29,203 nucleotides of DNA from a virus. The position numbers and the translations under genes were made by a program. Shown in pieces: positions 1 to 26,431 of the stretch. The stretch lies in IMG/VR virus record IMGVR_UViG_3300025917_000049, positions 1 through 29,203 of that record. One strand, given 5' to 3'. The notes below the pieces were generated by a model that saw nothing but the letters and a program-made list of their open reading frames with translations, was not told the DNA's origin and did no database searches. Within the stretch, counting starts at the first letter, position 1; each line of letters starts with the position of its first letter.

Positions 1-657
1 GCCGCGGCGGGCACGCTCGCGAAGCGGGCCCCCATCACCGTGGAGCCGCGCGACGGGCGCTACTACGTCAAGGACGGCAACGCCACCGTGCAGGTGCTCA
101 TGCTGGCGGGGCGGAGGCTCGTGCCTGCGCAGATCTTGCAGCCCGGGACCCAGCAGGAGGCCGCCGACGACTGCCACTGGGTCACCATCGGGGGCCGTCG
201 CATCTGCATCACGGGCGGGCACAGTCACCCCGGCCGGGCGTCGGCCCCACCCTCCCCGCGGCCGGGCGCGCACGAGTCGACCCTGGTCGACCGCCTCAAG
301 ACTCCGGACGGGGGCTTTACCTACAACGCCACCGACAACAGCGAGCCCAGCCGGGGCTTCGCGGTGAGCCCCTACCCCGACCGCTCCAAGGTGTTCGCTG
401 CCGCCAGCCTCTCGGAAGACGACCTGACGGGCTACATCGTCAAGAACTGGGACCTGCTGCAGCAGCCGGGGCACCACCTCGGCGCCTGGCACGATCCGAA
501 GACCGGCAAGATCTTCCTCGACATCTCGGTAGTGAAGAACTCCGCCAAGGCGGCCAAGGCGCTGGCGCTCAAGCGCGACCAGATCGCCTACTTCGACCTG
601 GGCAAGGGGGTCTCGGTTGACGTGAACCGGCAAGCCAAATCGGGGCAGGCCCCTTGA
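1..657 (+). CDS. 3' part of a polyvalent phage protein (ParB-like fragment, CHWIT motif, C-terminal domain)
   Basis: The frame is open from the first base, so the gene almost certainly begins upstream; a GTG at 40 is possible but has no clear ribosome site. About 13 residues precede that GTG. Then comes a stretch around D-G-N-A-T-V followed by G-R-R-L-V-P-A. This resembles the end of a ParB/sulfiredoxin-like domain, which normally carries DGxHR. Counting from the GTG, residues 38-63 hold one copy of the Cys/His motif that recurs seven times in the giant protein at 9710-16738, again preceded by QQEA. The remaining 140 residues form a globular domain with the segment L-G-A-W-H-D-P-K-T-G-K-I-F-L-D-I-S. 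I recall such segments from phage polyvalent proteins but cannot name the domain. The architecture suggests a second cleavable, head-associated multidomain protein. The reading frame is certain; the function is inferred. Confidence 0.7.
   Translation, partial: AAAGTLAKRAPITVEPRDGRYYVKDGNATVQVLMLAGRRLVPAQILQPGTQQEAADDCHWVTIGGRRICITGGHSHPGRASAPPSPRPGAHESTLVDRLKTPDGGFTYNATDNSEPSRGFAVSPYPDRSKVFAAASLSEDDLTGYIVKNWDLLQQPGHHLGAWHDPKTGKIFLDISVVKNSAKAAKALALKRDQIAYFDLGKGVSVDVNRQAKSGQAP
151..228 (+). repeat. CHWIT motif, copy 0 (outside the giant protein)
   Basis: Protein-level repeat: Q-Q-E-A, then C-H-W-V-T-x2-G-R-R-I-C-I-T-G-G-H-S-H. It keeps the C-x10-C-x4-H-x-H spacing. At DNA level, bases 192-222 are identical to 14725-14755 in copy 6. 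Confidence 0.9.
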
Positions 658-7842: not shown

Positions 7843-9753
7843 ATGGCCAAGAAGCGGAGCAGTCGAGCGGCGGCCCAGCCCAGCGAGGCGGCCCTCCGCC
7901 GGGAACTGCAGCGCGCCGAACTGGAGTTGTCGCTCACGGAGGCCAAGTACACCGCGGGCCTCATGCAGCAGTTGATGGGCGCCGAGCAGCGCCTCTCCGA
8001 GGCGCAGATGGTCATGGCCGAGCCCGAGGATCGGGGCTGGGACCCGATCTCTTCCGGCAGCAGCCTGAGCCCGAGCAAGCCCATGCTGGGCGAGAGCCGT
8101 GATAGCCAGACCCTCCGGCGGCAGATGTATCGCTTCTGGCGCTACCACGCCCACGGACGCGGCATCCTGCGCAACTTCGTGCGCTTCATCATCGGCACCG
8201 GCTTCAGCCTCGACTTCGATGACATCGACCGCGGCAACTGGACCGACAGCAAGAAGACCGCGGTCAAGATCACCACCAAGGATGACGATCCGGTCCTGGC
8301 CAATCTGATCTGGAGCGACTTCGTCAAGCGCAACGTCTTCAAGCAGCGAGCGAAGGAGATCATCCTCCGCGTCTTCCGCGACGGCGAGATGTTCCTGCGG
8401 AAGTTCGAGCGCGCGGGGCGGATCACCGTGCGCTTCGTGGAGCCGGAGCGCGTCAGCAACGGCATGCAGACCAACCTCGTGGGTACGGTCCAGGCCGGAG
8501 ATCTGGAGGATGACAGCCAGGTCGGCGAACCCACGCGCGTCATGCAGGGGATCGAGTTCCTGCAGGACGACATCGAGACCGTGGTGGCCTACCACACCCA
8601 GGTCATGGTGCCGGGGCAGGGGACGGTGCTGAAGCAGGAGCGCATCCCCGCCAAGGACATGATCCACGTCAAAGCGCTCTGCGACATGAACGACCTGCGC
8701 GGCATCCCCATGCTGGAGGTCGTGGCCAAGAAGCTCGTGAACTACGACCAGTGGGAAGAGTACCGGCTGATCCTCAACAAGATGCGCACCGCGGTGGCGC
8801 TCGTGCGCAAGGTCACGGGCACCTCCAGTCAGGCCGAGGCCATCATCGCCAACCGCATGAGCCCGCGCCAGCAGCCCCAGCGCCTGGAGCCCGTCACCGG
8901 CTCGGGCCGTCGCGAGGCCATGTTCCGCCCCGGCACCACGCTGACCCCGAGCCCGGGGGTCGAGTACGACTTCATCAGCCCGAACCTCCAGGCCCGCGAT
9001 GCGGCGGAGGACGGGCGACGCTTTCTCATGTCCATCGCCGCGGGCGTGGGCCTGCCCGAGATGCTGGTCACGGGGGATTGGTCCAACGGCAACTTCGCCA
9101 GCGCGGTGACCGCCCAGACCCCCGCGGTGCGCGAGTGGGAGGACTGGCAGGAGTTCTTCGAGCCGTGCTTCCAGAAGGTCTACGAGTGGGTGATCGAGGC
9201 CGCGGTGGCGGGCCTGGGCGCGCCCGAGGACATGAGCCGCGAGGTCACCATCCAGTGGCCGCCGCTCATCGCCAAGGACGCCTTCCGCGAGACCGAGCGC
9301 CTCATGAACCTCTGGGCCTCCGGGGTGTTGAGCAAGCAGACGTGGTCGGCGCAGGAGGACCTCAACTTCGATGACGAGCAGGAGAACCTCCACGACGAAG
9401 CGGTGATGGAGGCCGAGAACCCGGTGCCCGTGCACCAGGTCGACGTGGCGACGCTCCCGACCCGGCCGAAGGAAGGGCAGAACGCGGGGCCGTTGCCTAG
9501 CCCGAAGACCGGCAAGAATCCCTACGTGGCCGACATCCGCAGCACGATCGCTACCGCGACCGAAGCCAAGGACGCCTTCCGCGAGAGCCTGGCCCTGCTG
9601 GAGGCCGATCTGGACGGCGTTGCGGACCCCGCGTTGCGGGGCAGCCTGGAGCGCTACATGGCCACCGCCAACCGGGTGCTCGCCTTCACGGGGCGCCCAG
9701 GGAGTACGCATGCGCCACGTCCGGCGCACCGTCGGGCGCGCGCGCGACGTTAA
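7843..9753 (+). CDS. Portal protein
   Basis: A 636-residue, lambda-like portal that forms the dodecameric ring for DNA entry and exit. Typical segments in order are a charged N-terminal coil, R-R-Q-M-Y-R-F-W-R-Y-H-A-H-G-R-G-I-L-R-N-F-V-R, and a central strand-rich part. Then come the stem and clip with N-Y-D-Q-W-E-E-Y-R, R-M-S-P-R-Q-Q-P-Q, D-G-R-R-F-L-M-S-I-A-A-G-V-G-L-P-E, and N-F-A-S-A-V-T-A-Q-T-P-A-V-R-E-W-E-D-W-Q. The ATG follows a GGAG at 7834-7837. The C-terminus is basic and runs 44 bases into the giant head protein gene in another frame. Confidence 0.9.
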   Translation: MAKKRSSRAAAQPSEAALRRELQRAELELSLTEAKYTAGLMQQLMGAEQRLSEAQMVMAEPEDRGWDPISSGSSLSPSKPMLGESRDSQTLRRQMYRFWRYHAHGRGILRNFVRFIIGTGFSLDFDDIDRGNWTDSKKTAVKITTKDDDPVLANLIWSDFVKRNVFKQRAKEIILRVFRDGEMFLRKFERAGRITVRFVEPERVSNGMQTNLVGTVQAGDLEDDSQVGEPTRVMQGIEFLQDDIETVVAYHTQVMVPGQGTVLKQERIPAKDMIHVKALCDMNDLRGIPMLEVVAKKLVNYDQWEEYRLILNKMRTAVALVRKVTGTSSQAEAIIANRMSPRQQPQRLEPVTGSGRREAMFRPGTTLTPSPGVEYDFISPNLQARDAAEDGRRFLMSIAAGVGLPEMLVTGDWSNGNFASAVTAQTPAVREWEDWQEFFEPCFQKVYEWVIEAAVAGLGAPEDMSREVTIQWPPLIAKDAFRETERLMNLWASGVLSKQTWSAQEDLNFDDEQENLHDEAVMEAENPVPVHQVDVATLPTRPKEGQNAGPLPSPKTGKNPYVADIRSTIATATEAKDAFRESLALLEADLDGVADPALRGSLERYMATANRVLAFTGRPGSTHAPRPAHRRARARR

Positions 9754-12700
9754 CACCCACCTCCAGGATCACTTCCTGCGCCGCGCGATGCTGCAGCGGC
9801 GCTGGGAGAATGCCGCCTGCCGGGACGTGGACACCGTCCTCAAGCAGACGACCACCGCGATCACGAGCCTCGTGCACAACGCTGGGATCTTCCCCCCGCG
9901 CAAGCTCACGCCCGCAGAGCGGCCGGGCTTCGCCTTCCTCGATCCGGTCCGCCACGACAAGCTCAAGCTCCTGCTGAGCCAGATCGCGATGACGCTGGCG
10001 CACTACGTGCGCGGCAGCGTGGAATCGCTCCGCGGAGACCTGCGCTCCCTGGCCCAGGTCGAACTGCACCTGGTGCCGAAGGAGATGCAGGACATCCTCG
10101 ATCACCACGTCAAGAAGCACGGGCTCATGGAGGCCGCAGCCGACGACTGTCATTGGATTACCAAGAACGGTCACCGCATCTGTATTTCCGACGGGCATGC
10201 TGAGCACGGCCACGTCGAGATAGACCCCACGCTCGCCCCGATTGCGGGGCGCATCCAGCGCGTGGTGGGTCGCCTGAACCAGAAGTATGGGCCGCTCGTT
10301 ACAGCCGTGAAGTCCAGTGGCCTGACGGGAGACGTCCTCGCCCACAAAAGCAAAGACACCATCTATCTACGCTCCGATAAGGCCCTGGACACGGAGTTCT
10401 GGCGGCAGCACGAAAAGGAGTGGGCCGGACTCCGGATCGATCCCTCGCTGGAGGGTGTTCTCACCCACGAGTACGGACATGTGTTGTTCACGCGTGCCCT
10501 GAACACTGATCCCGAACGGTACAATCAGGAGATCGCCCCGCTGGCCGCTGACACCGCCGTGGCCACCTCCGCGTATGGCCAGGAGCACTCGGTTGAAAAC
10601 GAGGCCGAGGCCTTCGCGGCGATCGAAGCGGGCCGTCACGCATGGGGCCTGGAGACCGAGATGACCGGGCAGGCCATGGCGCGGGCCCGGCAGATGGTGT
10701 CGGCGGCCATGGCTATCCTGAAAGGCCAGACTCAACAGGAGGCCCTGGACGACCCCACGGCCGACGACTTCGACCCCGACCTCTACTTCACGTCCGGCCG
10801 CAAGGCGCTGATCCCGCCCGCCCCCACCCCGCTCCCCAAGATCCTGCGCGGCAGCCCGAACAGCTTCCTGACGGAACTGCTGGGCACCCCGCTCGGCGGG
10901 GCCTTCTACCAGACCTCCTTCGCCGATCTGGGCGCGAGCCTCGTGAGCGGCATCCGCAACATCCTCCTGGGCGGGCTCATGAGCGGCGAGGGCGTCGCCC
11001 CCGTGGCTCGACGGCTCCAGGGCCTGCTCGGGGGCGCCCGCTACAAGTCCGAGCGCATCGTGCGGAGCGAGTTCGGGCGCGTGGCCAACCAGGCCGCGCT
11101 CACGTCCTTCGCCCAGAACAGCGACGTCATCCAGGCCGTGCAGTGGATCTCGACGCTCGATGATGCGACGTGCTTGCAGTGCGGGGAACTGGACGCGCGC
11201 ACCTGGGAGAGCTTCGCCGCCGCCCCCGTGCCCGTGGCCGACACGCATCCGAACTGCCGCTGCCGCCTGATCCCGGTGGTCAAGGGCGCCGAGGATCTGG
11301 GGCTGCCCGAGGGCACGCGCGCGAGCTTCAACGGGCAGGTGCCCGCGAGCCTCGACTACGAGACCTGGTTCGATCAGCAGGACGACGCCTTCCAGCGGGA
11401 GGTCCTGGGCCCGACCCGCTATCGGCTCTACGCCTCCGGGCAGGCCGACCTCTCCGACTTCGCCACCGCCAGCGGCGTGCGGCGCGTGCGCGATGTCCTG
11501 GCGGATCTCGCCGAAGCCAACGTGGGGGAGTGTCACTGGATCACGAAGCACGGGCGGCCCATCTGCATCACCGGCAGCCACCTGCATCCGACCCCGCCAC
11601 CGAGTGGCCCGATCCAGGCCACGCTGCCCGGCCTGCGGGACTGGACGCCCCCGACCCCCGAAGATCTGGCGCGCCAGGAATGGCTCGACGCGCAGCGGGC
11701 GGCCGATCTGGACGCGATGCACGCGCTCTGGGCCACGCTCGACGGCACCGAGGTCGAGGTCCCGGGCCCCGAGACCTGGGCCGCGCTGACCGAGGCCCAG
11801 CAGGAGCAGGTCCAGAACGCGTGGGAAGACGCGCACGTCGAGGACTACATCGACCAGGCCAAGGAGGACTGGATCAACGACACGGGCGCGGCGGACGTCA
11901 CGCAGGCGATGAACGACGACACCGATCTGCAGCGCCGCGTCGTGGAGAAGGCGCTCACCAAGGCGCTCGGCCCGGAACGCGCCGCCGCCCTGCTCGACAC
12001 CGAGGACGTCGCGGCGAACCTCCGCAGTCTGGCCGGAGGATCACTCAGCATCCGGTCGGTGGCGGGCAACGACGCGGCGACCCAGGAGGAAGCGCGCGTG
12101 ATGTACCTGGAGGCGGGCCGCCTCTGGGAGGACGAATACAACGAGCGCATCAGCGATCTGGAGGTGCCGGAAGATGTGACCCAGGGTGCCTACGAGGCGG
12201 CCTCGGAGGCCTTCGCGGGGTTGGACGACGAGTCGAAGGACGAACTCGCCAAAGCGATGTTCGGCGGCGCGCAACGGGTCGACCTCACGGCACCGGACCG
12301 TTGGCGGGTGACGCTCGATCCGCACGCGTCCGCCGAGGCGCGCGATGAATACCTTGCGACGGGCCGGATTGCGAACGCGCTGGTCGCGGCCCGAGCCGAT
12401 CAGTTGTGGCGCGCCCGCTACCCGGAGGAGTCGACGCCCGATTTCCAGAACCTCGCGTCCGGCTTCTGGCGGGACTGGAAGAAGGACTCCTTCCATGAGG
12501 GCACCCTCGACATGCACCAGGCGCTGGTGCAGGAGTTGAGCGCCAACACGCGTGGGCAGGAATACGCCACCGCGGAGCGCAAGGGCATCGAGACGCTCAC
12601 GCCCAGCCACGCCGACCGGGTCTACACGCGCGCCCTCTGGGATACGACCCAGTTCCTGCTCACGAAGGCAGGGGTGACCGAGATGGATCTCTACCGCTCG

Positions 12701-15700
12701 ATCATCCTGCCCGCCGAGGTCGCGCACCGCGAGCCCACGCTGCCGATCACGCCTGCGGCAGCCTCCGGGTCGGGCTCGGCGGTGGATCTGCGGATTCCTC
12801 CCGGAGGCTACGTCAAATATCCCTCGCTCGCGCTGCAGCAGAATCCGGCGCAGTCGTTCACCTTCTCTGATCAGGTCGCGAACACCTGGGACGGCGTGGG
12901 CTCCTCGCCGCCGGGTGGCCAGCGGGTCGTGCTCCGCGCCAAGGTGCCGAGCACCGCGATCTGGTCGCTGCCGCTCTACGGCAAGAACATCCAGCACGAG
13001 CAGGAGGCGGTGGTGCTGGGCACGCCGTGGAAGAAGTGGGACGCCTGGATGGGCTTCGCGCCCCCGCCCGCCGTGCTGGCCCTGGAGGCGCTGGTGGAGG
13101 CGGGCCCCATGCAGCAGGACGGCACGCCCGCCCGGCCGGAGCAGTTCGTGATCGACCTGGCCAACCCCGCGTTGACCGGCGGCCAGCACTGGCTCTGGCA
13201 CGGGCGGTTCGTAGACACGCAGCAGGAAGCGGGCACCGACTGCCGCTGGATCACCAAACACGGCCGCCGCATCTGCATCGCCCCGGGCCACGCCCACACC
13301 GACCCCGGCGCGACGCAGGCGCTGACGGGCCACCTCCCGGCCGCGGCCCGGTTCCTCACCGATCAGGGCTGGCTGCACGTCTCGGCCTCCCCGACGGAGG
13401 AGGGGCAACACCAGTCCATCGTCTACCGCGAACCGCAGAGCGGCGACCGGATGACCGTCTTCGCCAACGGCGACTGGGTGCACGTGTTCGCCGACGGCAC
13501 GGCGACCGAGGGCCACCGCCTCGCCGGGCTCAAGCTCCACCTCTTCGCGCGGGACTTCCTGGGGCCAACGCTCCGCGATCCCTCCGCCCAACTGGAAGCG
13601 GCCGACGCCGAGGCCTGTCACTGGATCACCAAGAATGGCCGTCGCATCTGCATCACGGGCGGCCATACCCACGCTGCGCCCGTGCGGTTCGCGGCCTCGC
13701 TCGGGATCGAGCGCAAGAACATGCCCCAGATCCGGGCGAAGGACATGGGGGAGTTCCTGGCCTGGGTTTCGGAGCAGGGCGTGACGATCACGCGCGAGAC
13801 CGTCCCGGCCTCCAGCCTGCGCCCCGCCCAGGCGCACTTCAACCCCGAGCAGGTCGCGCAGATGCAGCGCGAGAACATGACCAAGCCGCTCGTGGTCTCC
13901 CGCGATCACTACATCCTCGACGGCACGCATCGCTGGGTGCGGTTCACCCAGGACGATCCCACGCAGGCCGTCACCGTGCTGCGGATCGATCGGCCCGCGA
14001 CCGAGGCCATCGACCTCATGAAGCGGTTCCCGAAAGCGGAGGTGCAGGACATCACCGACATCGGGGCGCCCCGCGGCCGAGCGCTCGCGCCTGCCCTGGC
14101 GGAAGCCGCGGATGCCGACTGCCGGTGGATCACCAAGAACGGCCGCCCGATCTGCATCCGCCAGGGGCACGGCGAGCACGAGCGGATCGGTACCGTCGCG
14201 AGTCTGCCGAAGCGGACCTCCGTTCCCGTCACCGGGCTCGTCCAGATCTCCAAGGGCTCAGAGTCCAAGGTCTACGACGGGCGCGTCAAGGCCGGGCGCC
14301 CCGTCATCGTCTATCGCGGAGTCGGCACCCTGAAAGAGATTGATGATGCCGTGGCCGCGGGCGCATGGGAATCGCAAGGCGACTGGGTCACCCAGTGGGA
14401 GGGCCGCACCCAGGTCGCGACGGGCCCGCTCGATCTCGCGTTGACGGCGCAGTACCCCTTCCTCGTCCAGGTGGACATCCAGGGCTTGCCGGTCCGAGCC
14501 GTGCATTTCACCACCGGCCCGAACCGGGTGAACGTGAAGTCCGGAACCGTCTCCGGCCTGGATCACGCGATGGGCCTGGGCGTGACGGCGCCCATCCCGC
14601 TCGATCGCATCAAGAACATCTGGAGCGTCGAACGTCCCTCGCTGAAGCTCACGAGCGTCAAGTCGCTCTTCCCTACGCTCGCGCTCCAGGAGGCGGGCGA
14701 GGACTGCCACTGGATCACGTACCAGGGCCGTCGCATCTGCATCACGGGCGGGCACGCCCATGCGGGGGCGTCGTCCACCGTCGTCACCACCACCGAGGAA
14801 GCCGCGCTCAGCCCGAAGGATCGGGCGAAGTTCGAGAAGGGCCTGGCCGCCTACGGGCTCACGCGCGAGGGCATGCGGGCTGAGATCCTCGCCAAGATCT
14901 CGAATGCCGACGGCACGGTCAACGTGCAACTCCTGGCGGAAGCGCGGCACTGGTATCCCGACGCGCACGCCTTCGCCACCGATCTGATGGGCAAGGCTCC
15001 CATCACCCTGGAACAGGCGGTGGGCGTGATCGCGGCGCTCTCGCCCCAGAATCCGTGGGAGTACAAGACCCAGTACGGCCTGGCGGGCAACAAGGTGGAC
15101 GCGGCTTCCGTCGTCCGCTACTTCGCCGACCACACCGAAGATCACCAGACGCCCGCGGAACTAGCCGCGGGCGTGAAGGCGCTCTACGACCCCAACGGCC
15201 ACAATGCCGACCGGCACCTGGGTCCCGGCATGCTCTCGCCCACGTCGAGCGTCGAGAAGGCGTTCTCGATCCTGCGCGACGGTTCGGCCGCCAACCTCGC
15301 CGAGCAACTGGGCACGCTCAAGACCGCGAGCTTCTACAACAACATCCTCGCGCCCGGCCAGACGCGCGCGGTGACCATCGACGGCCACATGGCCAAGGCC
15401 ATCGCCTACGCGGCGCTGGCGCAGGGCCGGGCCATGCCCAAGGACGGCCCGGGCCCGAAGGGCGAGCGCCTGGGCAGCGTCACCTCGATGATGGACGCGA
15501 AGGTCTGGGGCTCCATCGGTCACGTGCTGGTGGCGGATCAGGTCCGGCAGGTCGCCGACACCCTGCACGAGAGCCCCGACACGATTCAGGCCGCCTACTG
15601 GCTCGCCGTCCAGCCGAACAACCCGTTCAAGGGGACGTACGAAGCATGGCGCCCCGGCGCGTTCGGCTGGCGGCGCGACCAGACGGTCAGTGAGGCAGAC

Positions 15701-16738
15701 CAGGACCCGCCGAAGCTGCTGGCGCTGCGTCCCGCCATGCCGTGGGGCGATGGCCTCCCGCTGGAGCCGGAGGCGATCGAGGCGCGGCTGGGTCTCCGGA
15801 CGCTCGGGGAGGCTGGCGACGCCTGTCACTGGATCACCTACCGCGGACGGCGCATCTGCATCGGGGACGCGGCGCACCAGCGGCACGGGGACATCGAGCC
15901 CAAGATCTACATGCGGCCCGACGACCTGGAGCCGGTCGATAGCTGGGGCGGTGAACAGAAGTGGAAGGACAAGAAGCATGGCGATCTGCTGAGCGCTCCC
16001 ATCTCGAAGGCTGACCTACCGCCGACCCTGTACCACACCACCGTGGCCGCCCCCGCTATCGAGAAGGCGGGCCTACTGCTCGCGCAATCGGATGGCGGCG
16101 GCATGGGGGGCGGTGCGGGGCGTCCCGGCGTGAGCTTCACCACCAGCCAGGCTGACGCCGAGTTGATGCTGAAGGAACTGGGTCGCGAGATCGACCTGGC
16201 TCACCGCGCGCCCGACATGTCCGGCGCTATCACCCGCGGCCTCCTGGAGACCTGGGCGCGCGAGGATGAGCAGCGCATGGGCCTGCCCGCGGGCACCTTC
16301 CAGCGGGCCGTCGACTATGCCATGGGCAACTACGAGGCGAACGTGAAGCCGGTCACGCACGTCTTCGATATGGAGAAGTACGGCGGCTATGCCGACGACG
16401 TGCTGCGGCCTCAGCCCGAACTGGACAAGGGGCTGCGCAGCCTCGGCCACGACGCCCACAGTGCCTACATGCAGGCGCGCGAGACCGACGCGATCAAGGC
16501 GCTCGGGGCCGACTACCAGGCGTTTCGTGTCGAGGATCGCTATGCGCCCGTCAAGAATCCGCTGATCTTCGGCGACGCGGAAGCCTTCAAGGCGCTCGAC
16601 AAGCAGCATCTCGGTATCGTCACGGTTCCGACGGCCGCGATTCCCGATGGGGCCCTGATCCGCAAGGGCAGCGATGATTTCCTCCACGAGGTCCGCGTCC
16701 ACGCTGACGTGCCTCTTCACGTACAGGAGCCCGCATGA
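9710..16738 (+). CDS. Giant MuF polyvalent polyprotein (peptidase, MuF, ADP-ribosyltransferase-like, ParB-like and other modules)
   Basis: 2342 residues from ATG 9710, which follows AGGGAG with 5-base spacing; the upstream ATG at 9620 lacks this. Domains in order: helical N-terminus (1-140); zinc metallopeptidase with H-E-Y-G-H at 253-257 and N-E-A-E-A-F downstream; MuF head domain (about 345-600) with T-L-D-D-A-T-C-L-Q-C and H-P-N-C-R-C; a helical region, then an ADP-ribosyltransferase-like domain with R996, S1049 and E1097-x-E1099; a small unknown domain (1197-1293); a ParB/sulfiredoxin-like domain with D1404-G-T-H-R; a possible transferase-like domain (V-Y-R-G, R1536); a possible HhH-GPD-like domain (1685-2030); and a final ADP-ribosyltransferase-like domain with H2109, S2142 and E2327. 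Seven CHWIT motifs, each preceded by [LQ]xEA, separate the modules. MuF proteins attach at the portal, so the fused enzymes are probably packaged in the head. MuF and peptidase are the surest calls. Confidence 0.85.
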   Translation: MRHVRRTVGRARDVNTHLQDHFLRRAMLQRRWENAACRDVDTVLKQTTTAITSLVHNAGIFPPRKLTPAERPGFAFLDPVRHDKLKLLLSQIAMTLAHYVRGSVESLRGDLRSLAQVELHLVPKEMQDILDHHVKKHGLMEAAADDCHWITKNGHRICISDGHAEHGHVEIDPTLAPIAGRIQRVVGRLNQKYGPLVTAVKSSGLTGDVLAHKSKDTIYLRSDKALDTEFWRQHEKEWAGLRIDPSLEGVLTHEYGHVLFTRALNTDPERYNQEIAPLAADTAVATSAYGQEHSVENEAEAFAAIEAGRHAWGLETEMTGQAMARARQMVSAAMAILKGQTQQEALDDPTADDFDPDLYFTSGRKALIPPAPTPLPKILRGSPNSFLTELLGTPLGGAFYQTSFADLGASLVSGIRNILLGGLMSGEGVAPVARRLQGLLGGARYKSERIVRSEFGRVANQAALTSFAQNSDVIQAVQWISTLDDATCLQCGELDARTWESFAAAPVPVADTHPNCRCRLIPVVKGAEDLGLPEGTRASFNGQVPASLDYETWFDQQDDAFQREVLGPTRYRLYASGQADLSDFATASGVRRVRDVLADLAEANVGECHWITKHGRPICITGSHLHPTPPPSGPIQATLPGLRDWTPPTPEDLARQEWLDAQRAADLDAMHALWATLDGTEVEVPGPETWAALTEAQQEQVQNAWEDAHVEDYIDQAKEDWINDTGAADVTQAMNDDTDLQRRVVEKALTKALGPERAAALLDTEDVAANLRSLAGGSLSIRSVAGNDAATQEEARVMYLEAGRLWEDEYNERISDLEVPEDVTQGAYEAASEAFAGLDDESKDELAKAMFGGAQRVDLTAPDRWRVTLDPHASAEARDEYLATGRIANALVAARADQLWRARYPEESTPDFQNLASGFWRDWKKDSFHEGTLDMHQALVQELSANTRGQEYATAERKGIETLTPSHADRVYTRALWDTTQFLLTKAGVTEMDLYRSIILPAEVAHREPTLPITPAAASGSGSAVDLRIPPGGYVKYPSLALQQNPAQSFTFSDQVANTWDGVGSSPPGGQRVVLRAKVPSTAIWSLPLYGKNIQHEQEAVVLGTPWKKWDAWMGFAPPPAVLALEALVEAGPMQQDGTPARPEQFVIDLANPALTGGQHWLWHGRFVDTQQEAGTDCRWITKHGRRICIAPGHAHTDPGATQALTGHLPAAARFLTDQGWLHVSASPTEEGQHQSIVYREPQSGDRMTVFANGDWVHVFADGTATEGHRLAGLKLHLFARDFLGPTLRDPSAQLEAADAEACHWITKNGRRICITGGHTHAAPVRFAASLGIERKNMPQIRAKDMGEFLAWVSEQGVTITRETVPASSLRPAQAHFNPEQVAQMQRENMTKPLVVSRDHYILDGTHRWVRFTQDDPTQAVTVLRIDRPATEAIDLMKRFPKAEVQDITDIGAPRGRALAPALAEAADADCRWITKNGRPICIRQGHGEHERIGTVASLPKRTSVPVTGLVQISKGSESKVYDGRVKAGRPVIVYRGVGTLKEIDDAVAAGAWESQGDWVTQWEGRTQVATGPLDLALTAQYPFLVQVDIQGLPVRAVHFTTGPNRVNVKSGTVSGLDHAMGLGVTAPIPLDRIKNIWSVERPSLKLTSVKSLFPTLALQEAGEDCHWITYQGRRICITGGHAHAGASSTVVTTTEEAALSPKDRAKFEKGLAAYGLTREGMRAEILAKISNADGTVNVQLLAEARHWYPDAHAFATDLMGKAPITLEQAVGVIAALSPQNPWEYKTQYGLAGNKVDAASVVRYFADHTEDHQTPAELAAGVKALYDPNGHNADRHLGPGMLSPTSSVEKAFSILRDGSAANLAEQLGTLKTASFYNNILAPGQTRAVTIDGHMAKAIAYAALAQGRAMPKDGPGPKGERLGSVTSMMDAKVWGSIGHVLVADQVRQVADTLHESPDTIQAAYWLAVQPNNPFKGTYEAWRPGAFGWRRDQTVSEADQDPPKLLALRPAMPWGDGLPLEPEAIEARLGLRTLGEAGDACHWITYRGRRICIGDAAHQRHGDIEPKIYMRPDDLEPVDSWGGEQKWKDKKHGDLLSAPISKADLPPTLYHTTVAAPAIEKAGLLLAQSDGGGMGGGAGRPGVSFTTSQADAELMLKELGREIDLAHRAPDMSGAITRGLLETWAREDEQRMGLPAGTFQRAVDYAMGNYEANVKPVTHVFDMEKYGGYADDVLRPQPELDKGLRSLGHDAHSAYMQARETDAIKALGADYQAFRVEDRYAPVKNPLIFGDAEAFKALDKQHLGIVTVPTAAIPDGALIRKGSDDFLHEVRVHADVPLHVQEPA
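10127..10213 (+). repeat. CHWIT motif, copy 1
   Basis: L-M-E-A precedes C147; C158 and H163, H166 and H168 follow. It separates the helical N-terminus from the metallopeptidase domain. Confidence 0.9.
11510..11587 (+). repeat. CHWIT motif, copy 2
   Basis: L-A-E-A precedes C608; C619, H624 and H626 follow. It marks the end of the MuF domain. Confidence 0.9.
13220..13297 (+). repeat. CHWIT motif, copy 3
   Basis: Q-Q-E-A precedes C1178 (C-R-W variant); C1189, H1194 and H1196 follow. It ends the first ADP-ribosyltransferase-like module. Confidence 0.9.
13589..13672 (+). repeat. CHWIT motif, copy 4
   Basis: Q-L-E-A precedes C1303; C1314, H1319 and H1321 follow. It lies before the ParB-like module. 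Bases 13637-13662 are identical to part of copies 0 and 6. Confidence 0.9.
14096..14179 (+). repeat. CHWIT motif, copy 5
   Basis: L-A-E-A precedes C1471 (C-R-W variant); C1482, H1487 and H1490 follow. It separates the ParB-like module from the next module. Confidence 0.9.
14684..14761 (+). repeat. CHWIT motif, copy 6
   Basis: L-Q-E-A precedes C1666; C1677, H1682 and H1684 follow. It precedes the possible HhH-GPD-like module. Bases 14725-14755 are identical to 192-222. Confidence 0.9.
15803..15886 (+). repeat. CHWIT motif, copy 7
   Basis: L-G-E-A precedes C2039; C2050 is followed by H2056 and H2059, so the Cys-His gap is one residue longer than in the other copies. It precedes the last ADP-ribosyltransferase-like module. 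Confidence 0.85.
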
Positions 16739-16971
16739 CCCCACCCACCAAGAAGCGCAGCCGTCACATCACGGTCGCGATCCTCGCGCGCTGGCTCGAC
16801 GTGAACGAAGAAACCGTGCTGCGCTGGATTCGCGGACGCAAGCTCCCCGCCCTGAACGTCGGCGGCACCGGCAACGGCGCGCCTCGCTACCGGATCTTCC
16901 GCAAGGACATCGTGACGTTCCTGCATCGCCGTGGGCTGACCCACGATCACATCTCGGAACTGTTCGTCTGA
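16735..16971 (+). CDS. Excisionase-type helix-turn-helix protein (78 aa)
   Basis: ATG overlaps the stop of the giant gene (ATGA). After a basic tail (K-K-R-S-R-H), residues 12-65 read as an HTH_17/excisionase-type winged helix-turn-helix. Helix one is V-A-I-L-A-R-W-L, and the recognition helix is N-E-E-T-V-L-R-W-I-R-G-R-K-L-P-A. A wing G-G-T-G-N-G-A-P-R-Y-R-I and the closing helix R-K-D-I-V-T-F-L-H-R-R-G follow. Such small proteins bind DNA as excisionases or regulators. No integrase is in the window. Three 10-bp direct repeats begin 17 bases after its stop and are natural candidates for its binding site. A regulatory gene inside the head-gene block is unusual. Confidence 0.8.
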   Translation: MTPPTKKRSRHITVAILARWLDVNEETVLRWIRGRKLPALNVGGTGNGAPRYRIFRKDIVTFLHRRGLTHDHISELFV

Positions 16972-17075: not shown

Positions 17076-19139
17076 ATGGGCAAGAAGACCGAAGGCGGTC
17101 AGCAGTTCAGTAGCGGCGCCTACCTTGTTGTGCCCAACCCGGATGAGCCCTCGACCTGGAAGCTGCGCGTTGAGGAGACCCCGGGGAAAGTGACGACCGC
17201 GCAGTTGGGGCGCGCGGCGGCGGCGCTCGGGCCCGGCTTCCGCGGCAACAAGGTCAGCCTGAGCCCGGCCGAGCGGGCGAGCGCGCTGCGCAAGCTCCGC
17301 GGGCTCTACAAGAGCCAGGGCTCCAGCGGGGACGATCTGCCCGCGGTGCTCCAGCAGGCCGTCTCCCAGGTTGCCGGGCGGCGCCTGCGCACCAACGTGG
17401 CGAAGCTCATGGCGCAGATGGAGGCGGCCCCCGCCACCCTCAAGGCGGAGATCACCGAGGACCTGGAGTGCCTGCAGGAGAGCCTCTACCTCTACGGGCT
17501 CGCGGCCATCCAGGGCGGCACGCTCAGCTTCGAGACCGTGATCGCCGCGGTGCAGGACGCCTGCGACGAGATCGAGGACGGCGAGGACGACGACAGTCAC
17601 CCCGAGGTCGCGCCGTCGCGCCACCAGGTCATCGCGACGTTCCCGGGCACCGCGATCTATGCGTGCCAGGAGGGCTCGCTCTACCAGGTCTCCTACCACA
17701 TCGAAGGGACGGAGGCCGTCATCGAGGGCGAGCCGGTCGAGGTCACGGCCGAGTTCAGCCCGACCGAGCAGCCCGTCCAGGAAGCCGCCGCGCTCGCTGA
17801 GGCGCAGGCGCTGGTCGAGTCGCGCCCCGCAGGGCCCTGGGGCACGGGCCACATCAATCGCGAGACGAACACGATCGAGGGCACGACGCTCATCACCTCG
17901 GCCTCCTCGAACGGCGTCAACCGCAAGCGCAAGTACAGCGAGAACGCGCTCAAGCAGATCGCCAGCATGGCCGAGGGCATCCCGGCCTACGCCAACCACG
18001 TGAGCCCGGAACTGGCGTTCAAGCCGCGCGACGTCAAGGATCTGATCGGCCGCCACGTCAACGTCCGCTACGACGCCCCGACGGGCAGCGTGAAGAGCGA
18101 CCTCCAGTTGCTGGAGCACCACGCGCCGTGGGTCTTCAGCCTGGCCGAGCGCCTGGGCGATCAGGTCGGCAACAGCCTGGTCAGCAAGGGGCTCGTGCGG
18201 ATGGAGGGCGACACCGAGGTCGTGGATGAGATCGTCGCGCTGCGCTCGGGCGATCTGGTCAGCGATCCGGCCAGCACCAAGGGCCTCTTCGAGGCGCAGG
18301 GGGCGGACGAGGACGACAGCCAGGCCTTCCTGCGCGTCGACCGCGCCATCTTCCAGACCATCGCCGAGGCGGGCCCCGAGGCGCAGGTGGCCAGCCTGCT
18401 CTTTCCGAAGGCGACCTGGCAGGCGAGCGCCGCGCAGGCCTGGGCCAAGGCGCACGGCTTCAAGACGCTCGTGGAAGACACCGACACCGCGCACCGGCTG
18501 GTCCAGGCGCCGGAGTCCTTCAAGCGCACGCAGACGATCCGGCTGACCCCCGCGGGCGCGAGCCCCGACGTCGCCGCCGTGATCGGCTTCCCCACCACCA
18601 CTCAGGAGGCTATCGACATGGAGATGAACGCGGTCACGATCACCCAGTACCTGAAGGAGCACGCCGACGTTCAGAAGCAGGTCGGTGATCTGCTCGGGTT
18701 CGTCCCGAAGGCGGATGCCTCCAAGCTGCAGGAGTCCATCGACGCCGCGGCCCAGGAGAAGAAGACCCTGACCGAGTCGGTGGCCACCATCACCAAGGAG
18801 CGCGACGGCCTGAAGGTCGAGGTGGACGCCTTCAAGGCGAAGGAGGCGGTGGCCGCCAAGCGCGTGAAGCTGCAGGAGGCCATCGACAAGCACGACCTCG
18901 GCAAGAAGTTCGGGAAGGTCAAGGAGGTCGTGTCCGAGGTCTTCGTCTCCTCGCTCATGGAGGCCGACGAGGCGAAGTGGGGCGGGTTGCTGGACGACCG
19001 CTACACCTCGATGACCAAGGCGCAGGGCGGCCAGCGTCCGCGGTCCGAGGGCAAGGCAGGGGTCCTCACCGAGGGGCAGGACGGCGGCGAGGGCAGCGGC
19101 GATCTGCACCAGCGGCTCCGCGAGGCAGTGATCCGCTAG
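17076..19139 (+). CDS. Prohead protease fused to scaffold
   Basis: 687 residues. Residues about 12-85 form a small domain (A-Y-L-V-V-P-N, A-A-A-A-L-G-P-G-F-R-G, A-L-R-K-L-R-G-L-Y) often found with phage capsid proteases. A helical linker with an acidic stretch (D-E-I-E-D-G-E-D-D-D) follows. The protease domain covers about 250-405: R-K-R-K-Y-S, Y-A-N-H with H308 as the likely catalytic His, V-G-N-S with S367 as the likely nucleophile, and G-D-L-V-S-D-P-A-S with D393. Residues about 515-660 are a charged coiled coil typical of scaffolds. LxEA sites lie on both sides of the protease (E242|A243, E406|A407) and in the scaffold (E601|A602, E629|A630), suggesting self-processing. The protease matures the head and is the obvious candidate to cut the giant MuF protein. 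Confidence 0.82.
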   Translation: MGKKTEGGQQFSSGAYLVVPNPDEPSTWKLRVEETPGKVTTAQLGRAAAALGPGFRGNKVSLSPAERASALRKLRGLYKSQGSSGDDLPAVLQQAVSQVAGRRLRTNVAKLMAQMEAAPATLKAEITEDLECLQESLYLYGLAAIQGGTLSFETVIAAVQDACDEIEDGEDDDSHPEVAPSRHQVIATFPGTAIYACQEGSLYQVSYHIEGTEAVIEGEPVEVTAEFSPTEQPVQEAAALAEAQALVESRPAGPWGTGHINRETNTIEGTTLITSASSNGVNRKRKYSENALKQIASMAEGIPAYANHVSPELAFKPRDVKDLIGRHVNVRYDAPTGSVKSDLQLLEHHAPWVFSLAERLGDQVGNSLVSKGLVRMEGDTEVVDEIVALRSGDLVSDPASTKGLFEAQGADEDDSQAFLRVDRAIFQTIAEAGPEAQVASLLFPKATWQASAAQAWAKAHGFKTLVEDTDTAHRLVQAPESFKRTQTIRLTPAGASPDVAAVIGFPTTTQEAIDMEMNAVTITQYLKEHADVQKQVGDLLGFVPKADASKLQESIDAAAQEKKTLTESVATITKERDGLKVEVDAFKAKEAVAAKRVKLQEAIDKHDLGKKFGKVKEVVSEVFVSSLMEADEAKWGGLLDDRYTSMTKAQGGQRPRSEGKAGVLTEGQDGGEGSGDLHQRLREAVIR

Positions 19140-20579: not shown

Positions 20580-21803
20580 ATGCTGAAGACCGAAGACGTC
20601 AAGGACATCTACCGCGCCGCCGGTGGTACGCGTGGGTTCGTCGGCCTCATGGCCGACCTGCTGGAGGGCAAGGATCAGACGGGCAAGTCGATCCCGAAGG
20701 TGCGGCCCGACGACTTCTCCCTCCGCGCCCTCTGGGAGGGCCTGGTGGGTCCGGCCGAGGAGACGCTCGCCGGATACGCCCGGGCCGGTCGCTTCAACTA
20801 CCTGACCATGCAGGAGGCGGTGGACAGCACCGCCTTCCCGTCGGCGACGGGCGTGCTCATCGCCGCGAAGGTCATCGAGGCGTACAACGCCGTGCCGATG
20901 ATCGGCGACCGTCTCACCCAGGTCATGCAGTCGAAGCTGAAGCAGGAGCGCATCGTCGGGTTCACCTCGCTGGAAGGCCCGACCGAAGTGCCCGAGGGCA
21001 TGCCGTACCAGGAGAGCGGGTTCGCGGAGAAGTACGTCACGACCGACACCGCGAAGAAGGGCCGCATCCTGGAGGTGACCGAGGAGGCGATCTTCTTCGA
21101 CCAGACGGGCCAGGTGCTCATGCGGGCGCAGCGGCTCGGGGAGATGACCGCCGAGGAGAAGGAGTTGGCCATCCTCTCCGGCGTCATCGACGTGGGCTCC
21201 GGCGCGCCGGGCTTCAAGGACGTCTACCGGCCGAGCGGTTCGGTGGCCACGCTGTATGCCACCGGCAACAGCAACTACCAGTCCACCACCACCGCGCTGC
21301 AGGACTGGACCGACATCGATGAGACCCTGCAGTACGCGGCGGCGAACCTCAAGGACGACCGCGCCATCGTGTCGGAGCGGCTGCCGATCACCTTCACTCC
21401 GCGGGTGCTGCTGACTTCGCGGAAGAAGGCGGCGACGGCCGCGCGCATCATCCAGGCGACCACGGTGCGGGTGGGCAACACCGCGACCGCGGGCGGCGTG
21501 CAGGAAGAGGGCGCGGCCATCGTCTCCTCCATCGCGCCGGGGCTGGTGCCGCTGTCCTCGCCCCTGCTCGACTACCTCGCCGGGATCTCCGGCAGCCGGT
21601 ACAGCCAGTCGGACGACTGGTTCATCGGCGATCCGCAGAAGCAGTTCATCTGGCAGGAGATCTGGCCGCTGCAGACCCTGCGGGCGCGCCAGGACGACGA
21701 GGCGGCCTTCCGTCGGGACGTGGTGGCGCGGTTCAAGGTGCGCTACTACGGCGGCATCGCCGCGATCGACAACAAGTATTTCATCAAGGTCAAGGGCGCC
21801 TAA
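20580..21803 (+). CDS. Major capsid protein
   Basis: 407 residues from ATG 20580, with AAGGAGG at 20564-20570. The sequence fits a HK97-fold major capsid protein. There is an N-terminal arm, then S-A-T-G-V-L-I-A-A-K-V-I-E-A-Y-N-A-V-P, then an E-loop-like Gly-rich region with V-P-E-G-M-P-Y-Q-E-S. The C-terminal A-domain ends in D-D-W-F-I-G-D-P-Q-K-Q-F-I-W-Q-E-I-W-P-L-Q-T, then F-R-R-D-V-V-A-R-F-K-V-R-Y-Y-G. Its place after protease, scaffold and decoration genes is standard. Possible cleavage points in the arm are L-L-E29|G, L-W-E53|G and M-Q-E79|A. Strong hairpins lie before and after the gene, which may give it a separate, abundant transcript. Confidence 0.87.
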   Translation: MLKTEDVKDIYRAAGGTRGFVGLMADLLEGKDQTGKSIPKVRPDDFSLRALWEGLVGPAEETLAGYARAGRFNYLTMQEAVDSTAFPSATGVLIAAKVIEAYNAVPMIGDRLTQVMQSKLKQERIVGFTSLEGPTEVPEGMPYQESGFAEKYVTTDTAKKGRILEVTEEAIFFDQTGQVLMRAQRLGEMTAEEKELAILSGVIDVGSGAPGFKDVYRPSGSVATLYATGNSNYQSTTTALQDWTDIDETLQYAAANLKDDRAIVSERLPITFTPRVLLTSRKKAATAARIIQATTVRVGNTATAGGVQEEGAAIVSSIAPGLVPLSSPLLDYLAGISGSRYSQSDDWFIGDPQKQFIWQEIWPLQTLRARQDDEAAFRRDVVARFKVRYYGGIAAIDNKYFIKVKGA

Positions 21804-21921: not shown

Positions 21922-22596
21922 ATGAACGGGATTATCGGCATCCTCACGGGCAAGGGTCCGGCCTGCGATGAGTTGCAGGCCTGGCTCGATACGCTCCAGC
22001 CCTATCAGCCGACCCAGGTGCTGCGCATCCCGGGCAACCAGATCGCGCACCAGCGCAACCTGGTCGCCCAGCAGATGCTGGTGCAGGACCGCCCCTGGGT
22101 GCTCTTCGTGGACAACGACTGCATCCCGCCTCCGGGCGCCATCGAGCGGCTACTGAGCCACGATCTGCCGCTCGTCAGTGGCGCCTGCGTCGAGCGCGTC
22201 GCCCCCTTCGACCTCTGCGCGATCCGGAGCTTCGAGCCGTTCACCCGCTACCGCGCCACGGATCTCAAGGGGCAGACCGAGCCCTTCCCGGTGGTGGCGG
22301 CGGGCACGGGCTGCCTCCTGGTGCGCCGGGAGGTCTTCCTGGCCCTGGGCGCGCCGTGGTTCCGCTGTGGACAACTCTCGGCCGACCTCCTGGCAGAAGA
22401 CACGGATTTCTGCCTGCGCGCCGCCGAGGCGGGCTTCCCCGTCTACCTCGATCCCCTGGTCAAGGTCGGCCACGACGTGCGCTGTGTGCTCTACCCCGGC
22501 GACGAGGGCCTGTGGGCCCAGTGGTCGGGACCATTCGGGCTGCTGCCCTACCGGGAGCCGCTCGGGGACGAGGTGGCCCGTGTCGTTCACCTATAG
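21922..22596 (+). CDS. GT-A glycosyltransferase-like protein A (224 aa)
   Basis: A compact GT-A fold protein. An N-terminal strand G-I-I-G-I-L-T is followed by N-Q-I-A-H-Q-R-N-L-V, then the metal-binding D64-N-D66 in L-F-V-D-N-D-C-I-P-P-P. Further on are G-T-G-C-L-L-V-R-R-E-V-F and the catalytic-acid-like stretch A-E-D-T-D-F-C-L-R-A-A-E-A-G, ending with K-V-G-H. It is a paralogue of the gene at 23483: same order, same motifs, same W-F-R-C-G-Q. No signal peptide or membrane segment is present, so it acts in the cytoplasm on a nucleotide sugar. Lying between capsid and connector genes, it may glycosylate a virion protein; the acceptor is unknown. The ATG has no strong ribosome site. Confidence 0.78.
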   Translation: MNGIIGILTGKGPACDELQAWLDTLQPYQPTQVLRIPGNQIAHQRNLVAQQMLVQDRPWVLFVDNDCIPPPGAIERLLSHDLPLVSGACVERVAPFDLCAIRSFEPFTRYRATDLKGQTEPFPVVAAGTGCLLVRREVFLALGAPWFRCGQLSADLLAEDTDFCLRAAEAGFPVYLDPLVKVGHDVRCVLYPGDEGLWAQWSGPFGLLPYREPLGDEVARVVHL

Positions 22597-23076: not shown

Positions 23077-23486
23077 GCGGCCAGATGTCGCCGCTCGACT
23101 TCGTCCTCCCATCGGAGGCGGCCCTGATCGCCCAGGACGCGCTCGGGGTCACGGCCGATCCGCAACTGGCCCGGCCGATCACCTACCGGCGCTACACGGG
23201 CCGCAGCTTCACCCCGAGCACGGGGGCCTGGACCCCGAGCTACGACGTGAGCAGCCTGACCGCGGTGCGCTCGATCCTCTCGGCGGCCGAGGTGGCCGCG
23301 GCGGCGGGCGTCTACAAGACGGGCGACGTGCGCTACCTGATCGCCACCGCCGTGCTCGCGGCGCCGCCCGACGATGACGACCAGATCCTCACCGCCGAGG
23401 GTGATCTCTTCGATCTGGTGCGCTGGGACACCGATCCGGTCGGGGCCTTCTACCGGCTGGTGATGCGCCAGGTGAAGGCGGCGTGA
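23073..23486 (+). CDS. Head-closure / neck protein (137 aa)
   Basis: ATG 23073 has GGAGG at 23062-23066. The protein begins S-P-L-D-F-V-L-P-S-E-A-A-L-I-A-Q-D-A-L-G-V. It then has a beta-barrel-like region: I-T-Y-R-R-Y-T-G-R-S-F, A-V-R-S-I-L-S, K-T-G-D-V-R-Y-L-I-A, and D-D-D-D-Q-I-L-T-A-E-G-D-L-F-D-L-V. This order resembles small head-completion proteins that plug the connector after packaging. Location between a connector and further late genes agrees. Its stop overlaps the next GTG. Confidence 0.68.
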   Translation: MSGQMSPLDFVLPSEAALIAQDALGVTADPQLARPITYRRYTGRSFTPSTGAWTPSYDVSSLTAVRSILSAAEVAAAAGVYKTGDVRYLIATAVLAAPPDDDDQILTAEGDLFDLVRWDTDPVGAFYRLVMRQVKAA

Positions 23487-24187
23487 GCACCCCGCCCCCC
23501 TTCCGCGCGGTCTCGCGCCCCCGGGTGGCGGGCGTCGTCTGCGTGCTCAACCGCGGCGAGGTCGACTGGGGCCTGGCGCTCTGGCTGCGGGCGCTCCCCG
23601 CCGACGTGCACGTGATCGGCCCCAAGGGCAACTCGATCCCGCGCCAGCGCAACCTCGGGGTGGCCCACACCGCCGGGGACTGGGTCCTCTTCGTGGACAG
23701 CGACTGCCAGCCGCCCCCGCACACGCTCGATCAGTTGCTGCAGTGGCGCGTCGACATCGTCGGCGGCGTCGTGCTCGAACGCTTCCCGCCGCACCGGGTG
23801 GCGGCGATGCGCACGATGGAGCCGCCCGTGCGCTGGCTCTTGCAGGACCTGCCGCTCTCGGGCTTGGAGGCCGTGCCCGCCATGGGGACGGGCTGCCTGC
23901 TGGTCCGCCGTCCCGTGTTCGAGCGGCTGGAGATGCCGTGGTTTCGCTGCGGCCAGGTGCCGACCTGCGAGGACCTCTTGCTAGAGGACTTCGAGTTCGG
24001 CCTGCGCTGCGGCAAGGCCGGGCTCACCACGTTCCTCGACTGCGGCCTGCGCGTCGGCCACCGCGTGCAGGCCACGCTCTGGCCGGGCCGAGACGGCAAG
24101 CCCTGGGTGCAGTGGGACGGCGGCGCGGTCGACAGCCGGGCGCCGCTGGAGGATCTCATCAGCATCGGCGAGACGGCGTGGACATGA
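23483..24187 (+). CDS. GT-A glycosyltransferase-like protein B (234 aa)
   Basis: The GTG start overlaps the neck-protein stop. Paralogue of the protein at 21922. Shared motifs in order are I-P-R-Q-R-N-L-G, D72-S-D74 in L-F-V-D-S-D-C-Q-P-P-P, M-G-T-G-C-L-L-V-R-R-P-V-F, W-F-R-C-G-Q, L-E-D-F-E-F-G-L-R-C-G-K-A-G, V-G-H and W-V-Q-W-D. The N-terminus has an extra 15 residues. Two related transferases on either side of the connector genes may add successive or alternative sugars, or arose by a local duplication. Acceptor unknown. Confidence 0.78.
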   Translation: MSTPPPFRAVSRPRVAGVVCVLNRGEVDWGLALWLRALPADVHVIGPKGNSIPRQRNLGVAHTAGDWVLFVDSDCQPPPHTLDQLLQWRVDIVGGVVLERFPPHRVAAMRTMEPPVRWLLQDLPLSGLEAVPAMGTGCLLVRRPVFERLEMPWFRCGQVPTCEDLLLEDFEFGLRCGKAGLTTFLDCGLRVGHRVQATLWPGRDGKPWVQWDGGAVDSRAPLEDLISIGETAWT

Positions 24188-26096: not shown

Positions 26097-26431
26097 TGGC
26101 GACGGTGACCCCGAAGGCGCTGCTCGACGGCACGCTACTGGCCAACTCGATTGCGACCCTCTACGTGGTCCCCGCCGCGATGTCGGCCGTCGTGCGCTCG
26201 ATCACCCTGTGTAATACGGACTCGGTGGATCACGCGGTCACGCTGCACTTCGTGCCGTTCGCGGGCTCTCCCTCCGGCGCCACCATGATCCTCAATGCCC
26301 TCCCGATCAAGGCCGGGCAGACCATCGAGGATGATCTACTCCGCGTGCTGGGGACCGGCGGGTCGATCCGGGCATTCGCCGACGCCGCCAACGCGGTGTC
26401 GATGCGCGTGGACGGCTCCGAGGTGACATGA
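26096..26431 (+). CDS. Small virion-associated protein (111 aa)
   Basis: ATG 26096 overlaps the upstream stop by one base, and its stop overlaps the fibre gene's ATG. The protein is beta-rich: L-Y-V-V-P-A, A-V-V-R-S-I-T-L-C-N-T-D, A-V-T-L-H-F-V-P-F, L-P-I-K-A-G-Q-T-I-E-D-D, S-M-R-V-D-G-S-E-V-T. This pattern of N-T-D and A-G-Q-T is common in small phage structural proteins near tail fibres. It may be a fibre attachment or baseplate-like component; this is inferred from position. Confidence 0.6.
   Translation: MATVTPKALLDGTLLANSIATLYVVPAAMSAVVRSITLCNTDSVDHAVTLHFVPFAGSPSGATMILNALPIKAGQTIEDDLLRVLGTGGSIRAFADAANAVSMRVDGSEVT

Follow-up and report, generated by a model that had tools for sequence, protein, structure and literature searches.

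The closest described counterparts are proteins that travel in the phage head and enter the host with the DNA. T4 IPI-III and Alt are carried in the head, cut by the prohead protease gp21 after x-x-Glu and delivered with the DNA (PMC9026906, PMC7411985); they are encoded by separate genes and lose a short N-terminal targeting peptide. For gp21 the cleavage follows L/I-x-E, a specificity initially noticed at a Glu-Ala bond (PMC9026906), and gp21 relatives cleave after AxE in SPN3US (PMC10052503) and after SxE in phiKZ (PMC5694885). Polyvalent proteins (Iyer et al. 2017, PMC5512222) unite ParB-like, zincin and ART-like domains in a single polypeptide, and their genes lie next to those for virion proteins. 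According to this survey some of them are processed, release is due to embedded peptidases, and C-terminal assemblin-like peptidases have roles in virion assembly; the passages compared mention no repeated joint that combines a prohead-protease site with a lineage-private tag. In MuF-fused toxins a MuF carrier bears C-terminal effectors (PMC5576092). P1, with DarA/DdrB, likewise has a MuF carrier with C-terminal effectors; its capsid protein (between E120 and S121) and DarA are cut, which has been attributed to the prohead protease Pro (PMC12810830, PMC9024508).

The window, i.e. the whole stretch of DNA analysed here, comprises 29,203 nucleotides (positions 1 to 29,203 of IMG/VR record IMGVR_UViG_3300025917_000049). 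Two of its genes, one open at the left edge and one encoding a 2342-aa MuF protein, share a repeated joint (Table 1). Both probably encode head-packaged cargo polyproteins whose joints are cut by the prohead protease in such a way that a tag stays on the modules. By architecture, as read from the sequence, the system belongs to the polyvalent proteins and MuF fusions; the 2342-aa protein joins at least two unlike domains in one chain and its gene adjoins virion genes. Like T4 IPI-III and Alt the cargo is predicted to be head-carried, cut after x-x-Glu and delivered with the DNA. Unlike in T4, many domains lie in one chain, and the conserved tag is located after the cut and would remain on the product. 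In contrast to MuF toxins and P1, the phage also has cargo inside the MuF protein, each module with its own joint, and a second cargo gene without a MuF domain in view. In the literature compared, the coverage of which is incomplete, neither the repeated joint nor a lineage-private tag shared by separate genes has a counterpart.

Table 1. Positions of the features of the window that are treated in the text
Feature	Position	Strand	Remarks
Left-edge gene, 5'-open, putative second tagged cargo protein	1..657	+	218 aa in view; open frame, GC3 13/13 before GTG at 40
ParB-like fragment (tentative)	1..150	+	PHROG_1033 ParB-like partition protein, E 0.008, aa 10-42
QQEA, proposed prohead-protease site	151..162	+	predicted cut between E53 and A54; identical kind of site before all eight tags, also in capsid protein
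Tag CHWVTIGGRRICITGGHSH	172..228	+	modelled beta hairpin 58-63/66-71, low confidence
Unnamed C-terminal domain, aa 88-210	262..630	+	common to other phages and actinobacterial elements
MuF head-morphogenesis polyprotein, 2342 aa, seven tags	9710..16738	+	modules: zincin-like HEYGH, MuF, ParB-like, ART-like, DUF7178, others
LMEA + tag 1, start of putative zincin cargo inserted in MuF protein	10124..10204	+	comparison with relatives
QQEA without tag, end of inserted putative zincin cargo	10733..10744	+	comparison with relatives
LAEA + tag 2, exactly where relatives' MuF proteins stop	11507..11587	+	comparison with relatives
QQEA + tag 3	13220..13300	+	
QLEA + tag 4, ahead of ParB-like putative cargo module	13592..13672	+	
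LAEA + tag 5	14096..14180	+	
LQEA + tag 6, ahead of DUF7178 module	14684..14765	+	
LGEA + tag 7	15803..15890	+	
Candidate prohead protease-scaffold gene	17076..19139	+	predicted T4 gp21-fold domain at 17763-18320
Major capsid protein (Phage_capsid_4)	20580..21803	+	Q78-E79-A80 at 20811-20819

With the separator of the left-edge protein as a profile query, seven further places were detected in the record, all in one long frame, with E values from 5e-6 to 3e-13. The joint is therefore present in eight copies, one in the left-edge protein and seven in the 2342-aa protein. The back-translated core pattern of the tag yielded six matches compared to 0.00 expected in shuffled sequence. The tag is short, rich in Cys and His, and follows the pattern CHWITxxGRRICITGGHxH. 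In the alignment of the eight copies A, C, W, T, G, I, C and I were invariant; the left-edge copy reads CHWVT instead of CHWIT. [L/Q]xEA was found a few residues before the first cysteine in 8/8 copies with a spacer of varying length. Assuming independent copies, the chance occurrence of [L/Q]xEA before the seven tags of one gene was estimated at about 1e-8; the assumption does not hold because tag copies within one phage are mutually related. Among 2.9 million viral contigs the tag was found, apart from this record, in L009 and nowhere else, and a relaxed pattern gave elsewhere only chance matches (NHWVTTAGRFVCI) in short membrane-like frames. The tag is thus nearly private to this phage, as L009 stems from practically the same phage, of which it contains the right part of the polyprotein and what follows.

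Frame 1 of the left-edge gene was uninterrupted from base 1 up to the TGA ending at 657 and contains QQEA-ADD-CHWVTIGGRRICITGGH. The protein starts with the weakly ParB-like fragment, which is followed by QQEA, three residues and the tag; a disordered region then leads to a compact domain some 120 residues long. The first-pass annotation had located the separator in a separate gene about 9 kb upstream of the large one, and this was borne out with the ATG of the large gene at 9710 being 9.05 kb away. The ParB-like assignment made there, which would place the fragment in the ParB/Srx superfamily, is tentative: the PHROG match, with roughly the last 40 residues in view, is weak, and a Pfam search of the fragment gave nothing above cut-off. 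It is improbable that a short unrelated gene starts at the GTG at 40, because no Shine-Dalgarno sequence was found before this GTG, all of the 13 codons upstream of it carry G or C in third position, and residue 10, where the ParB-like match sets in, lies ahead of it. The record starts at base 1, its only companion L009 spans the right part only, and a search for similar phage DNA that might extend it leftward found none besides L009. Because the gene is truncated by the contig end, its own targeting part would lie outside the view; no MuF domain was detected in the 218 aa of this incomplete gene. The frame that directly follows, at 685-831, has 48 codons and is preceded by a strong Shine-Dalgarno sequence (ggagg); it may be a small partner of the left-edge gene or an unrelated gene.

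The C-terminal domain of the left-edge protein was modelled confidently (pLDDT 92-97) and had no match in Pfam, NCBIfam or PDB. The best VIA hit, eIF4E with a Z of 3.8, is not meaningful and was rejected as a source of a named fold. We found the domain in 22 predicted viral proteins, with 57% identity in a polyprotein of phage G006/L041 whose gene adjoins virion genes, and in actinobacterial mobile elements. A similar region is also present in a protein of Synechococcus phage S-CBP42 that is annotated as an internal virion protein (E 4e-4). No joint is located directly before the domain in L041 and L043, which indicates that the joint is an added part in the present phage. The initial proposal that the separator is a part of its own which several proteins of the phage employ is upheld by eight copies in two genes and by a partner domain that occurs in other phages without the separator; what the proposal lacked were a mechanism and the near-privacy of the tag. 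The domain was also seen in proteins encoded on a Microbacterium plasmid and in further actinobacterial genomes (L029 11632-12393; L036-L039) near genes for ATP-binding proteins and M23 peptidases, neighbours that suggest conjugative elements.

The MuF domain of the 2342-aa protein was identified by PF04233 (E 4e-10) and TIGR01641 (E 7e-13). In relatives found via the protease and capsid genes the MuF protein is one uninterrupted chain of about 375 residues; in L015, L016 and L030 this chain ends where the present phage has DLAEA. Inside the MuF protein of the present phage the putative zincin cargo, with its zincin-like HEYGH module at about 10202-10732, is inserted between LMEA with a tag and a plain QQEA, a place at which the relatives have no cargo. 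The EA sites bounding the insert and the C-terminal cargo starting from DLAEA show that the cargo is delimited by the proposed cut sites. L015 and L030 possess the protease, and tagged cargo beside MuF is absent from both. Between the polyprotein and protease genes, at 16735-16971, a small helix-turn-helix-like protein is encoded that resembles an excisionase or MerR-type regulator, an unusual location for a regulator.

The gene at 17076-19139 is predicted to encode a T4 gp21-type prohead protease with the gp21/herpesvirus assemblin fold. A Pfam search with the gene gave no match. Foldseek comparison of its conserved central domain with the PDB had the three chains of 5jbl as the top three hits (E 2e-4 to 5e-4). 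VIA-align 2 superimposed the protease model, which is of middling confidence with a mean pLDDT of 66 (the other four models were far lower), on T4 gp21 with a Z of 9.8 and 2.9 A over 135 residues; the next unrelated fold reached 5.5 and herpesvirus proteases 4-5. The protease of a relative matched the PHROG head maturation protease (E 6e-6), and H79, S138 and D164, a candidate His-Ser-Asp triad, were invariant in six relatives. At the level of sequence, [L/Q/M]xEA is present both at the joints and in the capsid protein, where MQEA ends at residue 80, the place at which the end of a propeptide would be expected. The capsid QEA is kept in aligned relatives, with LFEA in the most distant one, a conservation that is also expected from general sequence similarity. 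Prophage hosts sought through the capsid protein were not found.

In the relative G003 the cargo is a separate 3034-aa frame with ten copies of an unrelated tag, [VI]TRTxDGKFASxGPCPESGCGRxxGHxGAH. All internal copies (9/9) directly follow EA, whereas the first copy constitutes the N-terminus of the protein itself and lacks EA; its start GTG overlaps the stop of the portal gene. This is the pattern expected if EA is the cut and the tag the N-terminus of a finished piece. A tag that is a natural N-terminus also argues against a targeting peptide of the T4 type, which is removed. In the unrelated phage G008 (L044 4000-11200) a third private tag, DWDEDLHPRDDxGKFT, which is of the type [MLF][GA]D[WF]xxDLHPRxxxGKF, occurs in seven copies without EA. 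The copies are distributed over four adjacent genes, the products of which have ParB-like, ART-like and zincin-like parts. The protease of G008 looks Mu-I-like, and none of the gp21 type was seen in L044. This window is therefore not the only case of a phage that uses one private tag in several of its genes. Among the few phages compared, the EA site was seen only alongside a gp21-like protease.

For the present phage we infer the following course of events. The joint would consist of two parts, a [L/Q]xEA site cut between Glu and Ala by the phage's own gp21-type protease, and the Cys/His-rich hairpin tag behind it. Both cargo polyproteins would enter the prohead, the MuF one via its portal-associated MuF part. 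During head maturation the protease would mature the capsid and cut every joint, and each cargo domain would become a separate small protein starting with Ala and the tag. In the left-edge protein the cut would separate the ParB-like domain from the phage and mobile-element domain of unassigned activity. The freed pieces would be small enough to pass portal and tail and would be injected with the DNA. The least certain part is the role of the tag once free, which is most likely that of a handle by which the piece is held or led inside the head or upon ejection; the placement of the tag at each new N-terminus suggests such a handle for retention or ejection. The tags of the present phage and of G003, otherwise unlike, each carry two Cys and two His, which suggests metal binding.

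The same residues would suit a zinc-bound element in a joint that is a mere flexible or metal-binding linker, the polyprotein being packaged and injected whole and the hairpin spacing domains or binding DNA. There is precedent for this in the N4 virion RNA polymerase and some other polyvalent proteins, which are packaged unprocessed (PMC5512222). Yet a linker leaves unexplained why EA precedes every internal tag and is absent at the N-terminal one of G003, why cargo boundaries fall exactly on EA sites and why a second, tagless EA exists at 10733. Thus we consider a mere linker unlikely. Less likely still is release of the cargo by a protease within the polyprotein, the zincin-like HEYGH module, as proposed for DdrB of phage P1. 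One such module is indeed present, and polyvalent proteins often carry zincin-like peptidases that are thought to be self-processing (PMC5512222). However, the joint site fits the Glu specificity of gp21-type proteases and the capsid site, and the left-edge protein is without a zincin within the window.

The variation of modules among phages and the recurrence of joints within one gene might also point to a cassette border at the DNA level, a repeat for module recombination with the protein sequence as a by-product. This was examined by means of the codons. Identical residues were encoded by identical codons between copies in 63.0% of cases compared to 64.0% expected from the codon usage of the gene (P 0.56), and the same test with the tag copies of G003 gave 46.9% observed and 47.9% expected (P 0.69). 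Because codon agreement is no higher than codon usage predicts, no DNA sequence is conserved or recently copied and selection acts on the protein rather than on a DNA repeat. The reading as a DNA repeat or recombination site was rejected as largely refuted by this test, and we regard it as highly improbable. The codons indicate that the joints are old or silently saturated copies maintained at the amino-acid level.

If cleavage of tagged cargo by the prohead protease is true, it explains how one carrier protein loads many unrelated effectors that are delivered as small free pieces. A sequence rule, the Glu-Ala cut site plus a repeated private tag, would then make it possible to find injected effectors in uncharacterised phages and to place their ends exactly, and the tag would offer a ready means of probing what marks proteins for phage ejection. 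It is conceivable, though we hold it with considerable doubt, that some phages use an address code, in which a lineage-private N-terminal tag on each effector domain in any gene, exposed by prohead-protease cuts, retains or guides the piece within the head and on its way through the tail, and modules would be exchangeable plug-ins.

Finally, the late structural genes of the window are interspersed with several glycosyltransferase-like ones, at 1407-2330, 21922-22596 and 23483-24187. A long repetitive protein with heptads of the QVSALSQ/AISAVSQ type, which runs off the right edge (26428-29203), is probably a fibre.
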